Source of the DNA: a virus
IMG/VR virus record: IMGVR_UViG_3300009030_000016
Span: 1-26,102 of that record
Reading direction: 5' to 3' (one strand)
DNA length: 26,102 nt
Shown: positions 3,306 through 6,690 of the stretch, piece after piece
Layout of the letters: each line of letters begins with the position of its first letter
How positions within the stretch are numbered: position 1 is the stretch's first letter
Notes under the pieces: generated by a model
What the model saw: the letters and a program-made list of their open reading frames with translations, nothing else
Told to the model about the DNA's origin: nothing
Databases searched by the model: none
Translations under genes and position numbers: made by a program

Positions 3306-5215
3306 TCACATACCTCGCGGACATCGAAGCCAACGGCAGACTTGAACTCGACATGAAGCGTGGCGTGGTCAAGGTGCGGGAGGCGACGGTGATCCATCTG
3401 CTGGTGATGAAGAATCTCCAGACAGGCGAGGTCAAGGTGTACCGCAGGAACGAGAGAGAGGACACCATAGCTGAGGGGTGGGCCGAGCTACAGCGAGCCG
3501 GTCTCGTCATTGGACACAACTTCATCCAATACGATTGGCCCCTCCTCTGCCGCCTCGAAGGAGAGCCCGCCCACCGGCCCAAGATATTCGATACCTTGGT
3601 CGGCGGTCGGCTACTCTGGCCGGATGAGAAGGCTCACCCGTATGGTGGTAACTCTCTCGATGCTCTGTCGGTGGTGGCTGGCGGTGCCCGCAAGATGCCC
3701 TTCAAGGGGCCGTGGGATTGCTGGTCGCAGGAGATGGAGGACTACTGCATCGGGGATGTGGAGGCAGAGGAGAGCATTTTCCTATGGATGCGACCTCGCC
3801 TCCAACCCTATGCAGTGGCGTTCCGCATCGAGACCCGCATCGCTACGATCATAGCCGCCCAGCAGGAGAACGGTGTCCGCATTGACATCGAGCAAGGCGA
3901 GCAACTGATCGAGCGGATGGAGATCGTGAGGGCCGATGCCCTCGACAAGTTGCAGGCTGCATTCCCTCCCACCGTGGAGGTAATGAAGTCACGGTGGTGG
4001 CTGGGGGCTGACGGCGTGGAGTACGACACGAAAAAGTCTGGTCCCAAGGATGGGGAGTGGGGTGAGTTCAAGACGAAGGAACACCCCTTCGAGTGTACGA
4101 CGCAGCACCTTGCCCGTCGCTTCAAGGAGAAGTATGACTGGGACGCACCGCTCACCAAGAAGGAGAACCCCTCCATCAAGGAGGATGTGCTGCTGGCCCT
4201 CGACTTCGAGGAAGCCGAGTGGGCGTACCACCACAACATGGCGAAGATGAGGCTGGGGCACCTGATGGACTGGACTATCAGGGCACGGGAGTGCCGCACC
4301 CCCGGCGTCATACACCCCAGCATCAACACCAACGGTGCGGTCACGGGCCGCATGACCCACAGCCAGCCCAATCAGACGGCAGCACCCAAGGTGCAGACCG
4401 ACGAGGACTCAGGCCACCCGCTGCTGGAGTGGGAAGGACGATGGGGGTGGGAGATGCGGTCACTGTGGAAGCCAGCCCATGAGGGGTGGTGGCAGTGGGG
4501 TGCAGATGCGAGCGGGCTGGAGTACCGCATGCTGGCCGATGCCATGTGGCAATGGGACGGCGGGGCATACGCCAAGATCATCCTGACTGGAGACATTCAT
4601 GAGCATAACCGAAGGGCAGGCGGGCTTCTTACTAGGTCCCAATCGAAAGAGACTGGATATGCCTTCCTTTACGGAAGCGGAATGGAATCACTTGGTATCA
4701 CTATCGGAACCCATCCTTCGCTTGATGGTAAGCAACGGAAGAGGTATTCCAAGCTGCTTCGATCCGAGAAAGGTCGCAAGTCTATTGGGGCGGGGTTCCG
4801 ACGCAACCTTAGGAAGGGACTGCCCGCCCTCGGCAAGCTGATCGACCACTGCATCCACGCCGCCGACCAGTACGGCTATCTCACGCTGTATGATGGACGC
4901 CGGGCACCGGCCCGCAAGTCGTATGCCGCACTGAACACCAAGCTACAGGGCAACGGGGCCATCGTGATGAAGCTCGCCCTGATCCTGTTCGTGCATCGGA
5001 TGGAGGTTGAGTTCGGGTTCAAGCACGGGGTGGAATACGCCCTGATGCTGAACGCACATGACGAGTTCCAAGGCGAGGCTCTCACCAAGGTGGTAGCAGA
5101 ACATGCGGGTCAAGCCGCAGTGTGGGCTATCGGTGAAGCGGGCCGTCGCCTCAAGTGCAAGATACAACTAGATGGAGAGTATCGGGTCGGCAAAAGCTGG
5201 GCCGAGACACACTGA
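3302..5215 (+). CDS. DNA polymerase, family A, T7 gp5-like, with 3'-5' exonuclease domain
   Basis: The product is 637 residues (T7 gp5 is 704). Proofreading motifs are intact: Exo I LADIEAN (D7, E9), Exo II GHNFIQYDWPLL and Exo III DYCIGDVEA. Polymerase motif A is GADASGLEYRMLA, motif B is RSQSKETGYAFLYGSG (K449, Y453) and motif C is AHDEFQG. Y453 aligns with T7 Y526 and E. coli Pol I F762. The insert in the thumb where T7 binds thioredoxin is present but clearly shorter, so thioredoxin dependence is uncertain. The GTG start is favoured because Exo I lies only six residues in. Codon use changes around motif B (see findings). It would copy the genome with the primase-helicase and SSB. Confidence 0.95.
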   Translation: MITYLADIEANGRLELDMKRGVVKVREATVIHLLVMKNLQTGEVKVYRRNEREDTIAEGWAELQRAGLVIGHNFIQYDWPLLCRLEGEPAHRPKIFDTLVGGRLLWPDEKAHPYGGNSLDALSVVAGGARKMPFKGPWDCWSQEMEDYCIGDVEAEESIFLWMRPRLQPYAVAFRIETRIATIIAAQQENGVRIDIEQGEQLIERMEIVRADALDKLQAAFPPTVEVMKSRWWLGADGVEYDTKKSGPKDGEWGEFKTKEHPFECTTQHLARRFKEKYDWDAPLTKKENPSIKEDVLLALDFEEAEWAYHHNMAKMRLGHLMDWTIRARECRTPGVIHPSINTNGAVTGRMTHSQPNQTAAPKVQTDEDSGHPLLEWEGRWGWEMRSLWKPAHEGWWQWGADASGLEYRMLADAMWQWDGGAYAKIILTGDIHEHNRRAGGLLTRSQSKETGYAFLYGSGMESLGITIGTHPSLDGKQRKRYSKLLRSEKGRKSIGAGFRRNLRKGLPALGKLIDHCIHAADQYGYLTLYDGRRAPARKSYAALNTKLQGNGAIVMKLALILFVHRMEVEFGFKHGVEYALMLNAHDEFQGEALTKVVAEHAGQAAVWAIGEAGRRLKCKIQLDGEYRVGKSWAETH

Positions 5216-5454
5216 TGAGAGTAATACTGAAGACAAGGTGCGGGTGTACCCGCATTATCTGCCTGACCGGGTGTCCGCCCAATGTTAGGGTGCCGATGTT
5301 GAGGCGGGTCAACGCCCTTCGGCACAGTCCGGGCGACATCGTGGACACACCGTGGAACAACCCCGACTATGTGTACCCCATTGACGACCGCCTCTTTACG
5401 ACCACCGGGCAGCGGGATGAGGACACCGGGCTGATGCTGTATGAGGAGGACTGA
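5215..5454 (+). CDS. hypothetical protein, 79 residues, Cys-rich N-terminus
   Basis: ATG 5215 shares a base with the polymerase stop (TGATG), and the TGA shares a base with the next start in the same way, so the gene sits in a coupled chain. A longer in-frame start at 5155 lies inside the polymerase gene and is not needed. The N-terminus reads MRVILKTRCGCTRIICLTGCPP, with four cysteines within twenty residues, two of them as CGC. This suggests a possible metal site. The C-terminal half is acidic. I recall short phage proteins beginning MxVILKTxCGC from aquatic podophages, but no function is known to me. Confidence 0.7.
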   Translation: MRVILKTRCGCTRIICLTGCPPNVRVPMLRRVNALRHSPGDIVDTPWNNPDYVYPIDDRLFTTTGQRDEDTGLMLYEED

Positions 5455-5888
5455 TGTACAAAGGAACACACGCATGGGGCAACACGGTGAGTGCCCAAAT
5501 CCACACAGCAGTTGAGCAACTGCTTGAGGATGGACCTTTCAAGACCGAGAGTTGTCGGGACATTCGCACTTGCTCGCAACTAATCAGCCTGCATTGGAGA
5601 CCCTTCAAGACGGGGCCGACGTTCTGCTCCTTTATACGGTACGACGACGGCTTCATCATGACCGATATGTCGGACAAGAAGAAGGGAGACATCGCATGGA
5701 CTATCGGGATGGACTTGGCCTCAAGATTTCCTGAGATGCTGACCCGCATCTCAGACAACAGCGATAAGTGGGATGCACTGCAAACCAAGATTCACAACCG
5801 AGTATGGAGGAGAGCATGGCGAAATACTACTGCACTTTGGCGAAAGTTTACGATGTGGGAGAAGGCGGGCAACACCACGCATGACTGA
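5454..5888 (+). CDS. hypothetical protein, 144 residues
   Basis: ATG 5454 overlaps the preceding stop (TGATG) and has a strong ribosome site, GAGGAGG, in the ten bases upstream. The product has a mixed alpha/beta look: helical SAQIHTAVEQLLEDG, a beta-like FCSFIRYDDGFIMTDMS, then helical segments rich in Trp and Arg (VWRRAWRNTTALWRKFTMW). No family is recognised. Codon use is less GC-biased than in the replication enzymes. The last 24 codons overlap, in another frame, the ligase-like leader at 5816-5884 and the ligase start. That stretch may be a read-out of inserted DNA rather than conserved protein. Confidence 0.65.
   Translation: MYKGTHAWGNTVSAQIHTAVEQLLEDGPFKTESCRDIRTCSQLISLHWRPFKTGPTFCSFIRYDDGFIMTDMSDKKKGDIAWTIGMDLASRFPEMLTRISDNSDKWDALQTKIHNRVWRRAWRNTTALWRKFTMWEKAGNTTHD
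5806..5815 (+). promoter_or_regulatory. strong ribosome binding site for the ligase-like leader
   Basis: GGAGGAGAG at 5806-5814 contains a full GGAGG core, five bases before ATG 5816. The ligase ATG at 5881 has only a GGAGAAGG starting about 23 bases upstream, too far for good initiation. Ribosomes would therefore load mainly at 5816 and reach the ligase by stop-start coupling. Confidence 0.6.
5816..5884 (+). CDS. 22-residue leader peptide copying the ligase N-terminus
   Basis: The frame from ATG 5816 to TGA 5882-5884 encodes 22 residues. Residues 4-13 read YYCTLAKVYD, identical in sequence and numbering to residues 4-13 of the ligase that follows. After that it diverges (VGEGGQHHA). It has the best ribosome site in the area, and its stop overlaps the ligase start as ATGA (5881-5884). 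It lies in a frame different from both the upstream gene and the ligase. It is either the remnant of a second ligase allele left by recombination, or a leader that couples ribosomes into the ligase. The two are compatible. Confidence 0.5.
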   Translation: MAKYYCTLAKVYDVGEGGQHHA

Positions 5889-5923
5889 TTACTACTGCAC
5901 CCTCGCCAAGGTTTACGATGCGG
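5816..5923 (+). repeat. imperfect tandem duplication of the ligase 5' end (65-base period)
   Basis: Bases 5816-5858 align with 5881-5923 at 33 of 43 positions by hand count. Within the shared codons 4-13, all five differences are synonymous (ACT/ACC, TTG/CTC, GCG/GCC, AAA/AAG). The period, 65, is not a multiple of three, so the copies lie in different frames. Confidence 0.8.
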
Positions 5924-6690
5924 ATAAGCACGACGTTACGGGGTGGGTTTGGAGCGAGAAGCTCGACGGAGTGAGGGCACTGTGGCGTCCCGACGAGGGC
6001 CGCTTCGTGTCACGCAGCAACAAGCCACTCAATGTCCCGCCGTCGTGGCTGAAGATGATGGCCGAGGTGAAGATACCCCTCGATGGCGAGTTCTTCATGG
6101 GCCGGGGCCGTTTCAATGAGACCATCTCGGCGGTGCGGAAGAAGGCACCCACTGAGGAGCAGTTCATCGGCGTGAAGTACGCCGTGTTCGACGCCGTGGT
6201 GGAACAGGCCGACTTCGCGGAGAGGCTGAGCATGGCAGAGATGGCAGTGGCTAGGGTCAAGGACACCCGCCTCTTCGTTCACCTCCATACGACCGTGACC
6301 AACATGGCCTCGATTGGCGTGGCGTATCTCTCCATCATGGCGTCGGGGGGAGAGGGCATCATGTTCCGCAACCCCGGTTCGCAGTACGAGTTCAAGAGGA
6401 CGAGCAACCTACTCAAGATGAAGGGGGAGATAGACGGCAAGGCCACGGTGCGGGCAATACAGCCCGGCAAGGGCAAGCACGAAGGACGCATGGGTGCCCT
6501 TGAAGTGGACGCCTTCTACGAGGGCAAGGCCATCTCATTCGAGGTGGGCACGGGGTTCACTGACGAGGAGCGGCAATGGTGGTGGGACAATGACCCCGTG
6601 GGTCAGGTCATCCGGTGGCGGGGGATGGAATTGACAGTGGACGACAGCGTTCGCTTCCCAGTGTATGTATGCAGAGATGAGGGAGACTAA
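5881..6690 (+). CDS. ATP-dependent DNA ligase
   Basis: The product is 269 residues when started at ATG 5881; an in-frame ATG at 5773 is rejected because the added 36 residues read through the upstream gene. The nucleotidyltransferase motifs are in order: motif I SEKLDGVRA (K27 takes the AMP), motif III LDGEFFMGRG, motif IIIa KYAVFDAV, motif IV GEGIMFRNP and motif V LLKMKG. A C-terminal OB-fold-like domain (about 180-269) follows. This is the minimal ligase layout of small viral and bacterial Lig-type enzymes, shorter than T7 gp1.3 (359). It would seal nicks left by the RusA, exonuclease and polymerase reactions. Start-site context is unusual: see the leader at 5816. Confidence 0.92.
   Translation: MTDYYCTLAKVYDADKHDVTGWVWSEKLDGVRALWRPDEGRFVSRSNKPLNVPPSWLKMMAEVKIPLDGEFFMGRGRFNETISAVRKKAPTEEQFIGVKYAVFDAVVEQADFAERLSMAEMAVARVKDTRLFVHLHTTVTNMASIGVAYLSIMASGGEGIMFRNPGSQYEFKRTSNLLKMKGEIDGKATVRAIQPGKGKHEGRMGALEVDAFYEGKAISFEVGTGFTDEERQWWWDNDPVGQVIRWRGMELTVDDSVRFPVYVCRDEGD

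Follow-up and report, generated by a model that had tools for sequence, protein, structure and literature searches.

The ATP-dependent DNA ligase gene of an uncultured T7-like phage is preceded by an ATG-started frame of 22 codons, whose peptide (MAKYYCTLAKVYD plus nine residues) repeats the N-terminus of the ligase itself. This mini-cistron is probably (at a probability of roughly 0.6) a 5' remnant, or stub, of a diverged ligase allele that was left by an offset crossover and would now act as a ribosome-loading leader coupled to the ligase. The window analysed is the whole 26.1-kb virus record (26,102 nt; IMGVR_UViG_3300009030_000016). Its T7-like replication block consists of genes for a single-stranded-DNA-binding protein, a primase/helicase and a family A DNA polymerase, small gene Y (5215-5454, plus strand, 79 aa, downstream of the polymerase), an orphan gene (5454-5888), the ligase gene (5881-6690), and genes for a deoxynucleoside monophosphate kinase and a 5'-3' exonuclease. 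An imperfect inverted repeat (5096-5119 / 5239-5262; 24 nt, 79%) spans the junction of the polymerase gene and gene Y, and a terminator-like hairpin on the minus strand (5239-5254) lies near the same junction.

More than 10 kb of the window recurs without a difference in two further IMG/VR contigs (33.6 and 50.0 kb; from metagenomes 3300024431 and 3300020235). The base-identical junction in these two contigs from other metagenomes makes an assembly chimera unlikely, but the three junction-bearing contigs are mutually identical and are thus not independent evidence of conservation. No second full ligase was found in the genome, as represented by the contigs of 33.6 and 50.0 kb, and no close relatives were found among bacterial genome contigs.

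The ligase gene (plus strand, 269 aa) was assigned to PHROG 114 (E=5e-54). Its product contains the nucleotidyltransferase and OB domains that define ATP-dependent DNA ligases (Pfam DNA_ligase_A_M and DNA_ligase_OB_2, both above cut-offs), and the KxDG motif (K27-D29-G30) is invariant in the alignment. The translation begins MTDYYCTLAKVYDADKHDV. A longer ligase starting from the ATG at 5773 was considered and rejected, since its ribosome site is poor and the ligase of the relative L022, which starts at the equivalent codon, gives it no support. The understanding of ligase function is unchanged by the present finding. At the ligase start (ATGACTGA; 5881-5888, plus strand), the leader stop (TGA, 5882-5884) and the stop of the upstream gene (TGA, 5886-5888) are both included, and both non-ligase frames are thereby closed within 8 nt; ribosomes arriving in either frame would therefore end at the ligase start.

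A repeat search identified a 45-nt direct repeat (5814-5858 / 5879-5923, plus strand; spacing 65 nt, 78% identity), which is the sole repeat family in the region 5500-6200. The first copy is the stub and the second is the real ligase start. The leader frame (5816-5884, plus strand) encodes MAKYYCTLAKVYDVGEGGQHHA before its stop codon; codons 1-13 correspond to the ligase N-terminus, and the ligase-like codons read ATGGCGAAATACTACTGCACTTTGGCGAAA. A GGAGG ribosome-binding site (5806-5810, plus strand) is located 5 nt before the leader ATG. The 20-nt spacer between the copies (5859-5878, plus strand) holds a degraded and far-spaced AAGGCGG (5862-5868). Among the gene starts tested, this leader is the only coupled mini-ORF of at least 15 codons with a ribosome site, and no comparable duplicated gene start was found upstream of another gene in the loci retrieved (1.08 Mb, partly redundant). 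The sequence-only reading had already described the GGAGG-led frame repeating ligase residues 4-13 (YYCTLAKVYD), the 65-base period and the overlap of the leader stop with the ligase ATG (5881-5883) as ATGA, and all of these were confirmed.

The degenerate pattern for YYCTLAKVYD has two matches without mismatch in the window, both at this junction, while none is expected in shuffled sequences even when three mismatches are allowed. Elsewhere, the exact pattern occurs only in the two identical contigs. The looser pattern YxCTLAKxYD was found in IMG/VR only in this phage (both copies) and in L022 (one copy), and its matches in viral contigs are confined to ligase genes and the leader. The L022 ligase, which is the nearest ligase relative (58% identical), begins MAEYHCTLAKKYDPGKHDV, that of L024 begins MPQFSFLLAKPYEPDKHD, and more distant ligases have LAxxYD-like starts in common. 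Judged by these matches, ligases of this type begin with the leader motif.

Between leader and ligase, codons 4-13 contain five base differences, all of which are synonymous, whereas the amino acids differ at codons 2, 3, 14, 15 and 16. The divergence had been described as synonymous only, which applies to codons 4-13 but not to the flanking codons. In simulations of random substitution under three transition biases, the chance of five synonymous changes in five was 3e-5 to 8e-4; when the choice of block within 14 codons was allowed for, the chance of an all-synonymous block was at most 6e-4. The wobble positions of the leader are second codon positions in the frame of the upstream gene, which argues that divergence followed the ligase frame. 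The leader thus combines a match to the ligase N-terminus with ligase-like constraint, as would be expected of a ligase-allele stub. A direct repeat at 65-nt spacing is also the usual mark of an in-genome tandem duplication, in which the ligase start would have been duplicated and then diverged, leaving an inert stub and a ligase that is coupled to the upstream gene or weakly self-translated; the upstream gene does stop on the ligase start. However, the two units are alike in only 45 of 65 nt, and 22% divergence without a non-synonymous change in the core is unlikely for an unconstrained copy (about 1e-4 to 8e-4), so that this origin is considered unlikely.

The origin of the stub from a ligase allele was assessed against L021 (1-4090), a contig of a sister phage from metagenome 3300020235, which also holds the window phage; the two phages share 76-79% nucleotide identity. 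The primases are 82% identical in amino acids and 79% in nucleotides, with 35% of conserved codons changed, and the corresponding values for the polymerases are 78, 76 and 35%. Leader and ligase, compared over a homologous block of only 13 codons, show 85, 77 and 36%. Because the leader-ligase divergence matches that between the sister phages, the stub resembles a relative's ligase allele, left behind by an offset crossover, more than a tandem duplicate undergoing drift. GC3 is 0.62 in the leader, 0.66 in L021 and 0.81 in the ligase. The choice of codons in the leader stands out when taken unconditionally (P=0.001), but this falls to P=0.09 given the difference from the ligase at those codons, and foreign codon usage is therefore suggestive only. 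The proposal of a second ligase allele introduced by recombination thus gains a divergence equal to that from L021, whereas no contig with the donor allele, i.e. an intact ligase carrying the 5' sequence of the stub, was found in IMG/VR. The L021 contig ends inside its polymerase gene, just before the informative junction. The case for the allele is strong but not conclusive, since the block is no longer than 13 codons and none of the donor contigs extends into the ligase. The spacer showed no significant similarity to the continuation of the ligase (GCGGGCAA-CACCACG against codons 14-19; p=0.18) or to the upstream DNA of L022.

The orphan gene upstream of the ligase (plus strand, 144 codons) crosses the first copy in the third frame and stops 8 nt into the ligase; it had been thought to read through both copies, which holds for the first but not for the second. 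Its last 24 codons (from 5814), which cross the stub, are probably a read-through extension. The gene is located between gene Y and the ligase and is inserted there relative to L022, in which the counterpart of gene Y directly precedes the ligase. Its GC content (0.52) is below that of every 360-nt window of five core genes, suggesting that it came from elsewhere. No relatives were detected in PHROGs (best E=0.12), Pfam, NCBIfam or PDB sequences, nor in phage records and IMG/VR except in the identical contigs, and a single-sequence fold was uninformative (pLDDT 37). The repeat copies are not a target-site duplication flanking the inserted gene, because both lie downstream of it.

In L022, there is no leader or stub; the ligase has a single start with AAGGAGG directly before its ATG, and gene Y overlaps the ligase start by 8 nt (xATGRCTGA), just as the upstream gene does in the window (GATGGCTGA in L022 and CATGACTGA in the window). 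The second of the two stops at the ligase start of the window is also present in L022 (ATGGCTGA). Among the relatives of 60-70% identity, a ligase gene is present in L022, L024 and L025 and was not found in L023, L026 and L028-L030, although the kinase gene is present in the latter. In L024 and L025, there is a 29-nt overlap between a MazG-like gene and the ligase.

Pairing with the 16S tail was computed for the starts around the junction. The leader site gave -9.3 kcal/mol at a spacing of 4-5 nt, whereas the remaining site of the ligase itself (AAGGCGG) gave -7.7 kcal/mol, is interrupted and lies 11-12 nt from the ATG. The L022 ligase site gave -12.0 kcal/mol at a spacing of 5-6 nt. When one 65-nt unit is removed (5814-5878; join 5813/5879), the junction becomes GGAGGAGAGC-ATGA and the orphan gene ends in VWRRA. 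The ATGA is then common to the upstream stop and the ligase start, with GGAGG 5 nt ahead, which is a textbook arrangement. The restoration of this canonical junction suggests that an insertion parted the ligase from its ribosome site. Stop/start overlaps of -4 or -1 nt are common in the window, occurring at 1047, 1415, 5215, 5454 and 10823. These strengths and spacings, together with the junction restored by removal of the unit, fit the earlier suggestion that the leader loads ribosomes for a ligase with a poorly spaced site of its own. Relatives that lack the leader but express the ligase normally had been named as a point against this role; L022 does lack the leader, but a strong ribosome site lies directly on its ligase.

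From the sequence of the junction, we infer the crossover, the direction of events, the translation of the leader and reinitiation as follows. In the ancestral state, the upstream gene would have ended on the ligase start in ATGA, and the GGAGG at 5806-5810, 5 nt ahead, would have been the original ribosome site of the ligase. Related phages may then have recombined where the upstream gene meets the ligase, in an offset (illegitimate) crossover that left the stub and displaced the ligase 65 nt from the GGAGG exactly at a canonical coupled junction; a change of ATGA to ATGG would have removed the stop of the upstream gene from the first copy. An offset of 65 nt moves the frame by two, and since no stop in the leader frame occurs within the 20-nt spacer, the stub would have come to end in ATGA on the ligase start. 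Ribosomes would bind the GGAGG at 5806, read 22 codons as far as the stop at 5882-5884 and then begin again at the overlapping ATG at 5881, whereas those from the upstream gene would stop 4 nt further on. The retained site and the ATGA overlap should thus restore ligase expression by termination-reinitiation.

Reinitiation can, on this architecture, also occur from the upstream gene alone, and the leader may be dispensable. The upstream gene might accordingly carry all of the coupling, with the leader being little translated and of little consequence; of the starts tested in the window, it has the strongest ribosome site (-12.0), its stop lies 8 nt inside the ligase, and the xATGRCTGA overlap links upstream gene and ligase in L022 as well. 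Initiation at the leader is nevertheless expected from its near-consensus and well-spaced GGAGG, which makes a merely passive scar improbable. It had also been suggested that the leader encodes a regulatory peptide. Selection on MAKYYCTLAKVYD itself, e.g. as a nascent-chain regulator or a ligase-interacting peptide, would also give a synonymous-only core after duplication, but YxCTLAKxYD is accounted for as the ligase N-terminus, the stretch of nine residues that follows codon 13, in which a stalling motif would have to act, is without relatives, and the peptide is absent from L022. A regulatory RNA structure was rejected: the whole region folds no better than shuffled sequences (z 0.71), and no Rfam match was found in it. 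The regulatory peptide thus found no support and is regarded as very improbable. The two copies could pair in a 10-bp stem (-15.9 kcal/mol), yet a stem as strong arises from codon usage alone with P=0.14. No sigma-70-like promoter match was found inside the region.

Termination-reinitiation at stop/start overlaps is well documented (PMC6728339, PMC12548453). Like other coupled leaders (uORFs), the phage leader is a short ORF whose stop overlaps the downstream start, and by computation it has a usable ribosome-binding site of its own. The nearest natural parallel, by analogy, is the MIRU of mycobacteria: MIRU insertions sit at start codons, and their ORF couples to the gene with a -4 nt (ATGA) spacing (PMC12548453). 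Both cases involve a short insert at a start codon, an ORF coupled by ATGA and, for the phage presumably, expression that survives the insertion. However, MIRUs are mobile interspersed repeats unrelated to their targets, whereas the leader is a single-copy diverged stub of the target gene in a phage and does not belong to an interspersed family at several loci. Tap, a small translated leader ORF, activates repA translation by coupling. It resembles the phage leader as a small leader ORF coupled to a replication gene, but Tap is not a copy of the RepA N-terminus and is under antisense RNA control, which was not seen at the phage leader. Tap of plasmid R1 is known as a translational activator leader peptide (PMC5883639). 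In bicistronic designs (BCDs), a short first cistron with a good SD contains the SD of the second gene, and its translation brings ribosomes to the second (PMC5995908). The leader shares the short, well-provided first cistron and the SD of the second gene within it; unlike the engineered BCD, it is natural and derived from the second gene, and its embedded SD (AAGGCGG, 5862-5868) is weak, interrupted and, at 11-12 nt, not at a working distance. Gene VII of f1 is a coupled phage gene with a defective start of its own (PMC12548453), i.e. an inherently weak downstream start used through coupling; there the upstream partner is a full gene, a role that may fall to a residual gene stub at the present junction. 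The junction also resembles phage mosaic junctions, at which gene boundaries are formed by recombination.

The leader would thus act like a coupled short ORF, yet it is by membership neither a MIRU, a BCD nor Tap, but a single self-derived gene stub. The open-access literature searched yielded no report of a leader that is a copy of the start of the gene it serves. The class of mechanism (coupled leader ORFs and MIRU insertions) is known, and the self-derived stub appears to be a new variation; the junction is an example in a good state of preservation and does not amount to a new kind of system. More tentatively, a sister-allele stub may be a natural form of coupled leader: offset recombination at an ATGA junction would make a ribosome-loading cistron, self-derived, through which expression of the parted gene continues, and insertions at the starts of coupled genes might be tolerated in this way more generally. 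If the proposed history is correct, a mosaic junction has been caught in the act, displaying the allele origin of each sequence, the broken ATGA junction and its rescue by the phasing of the scar. Translational coupling would then make gene starts insertion-tolerant, as proposed for MIRUs, without a mobile element, and the leader would be a natural, self-derived counterpart to engineered bicistronic leaders.
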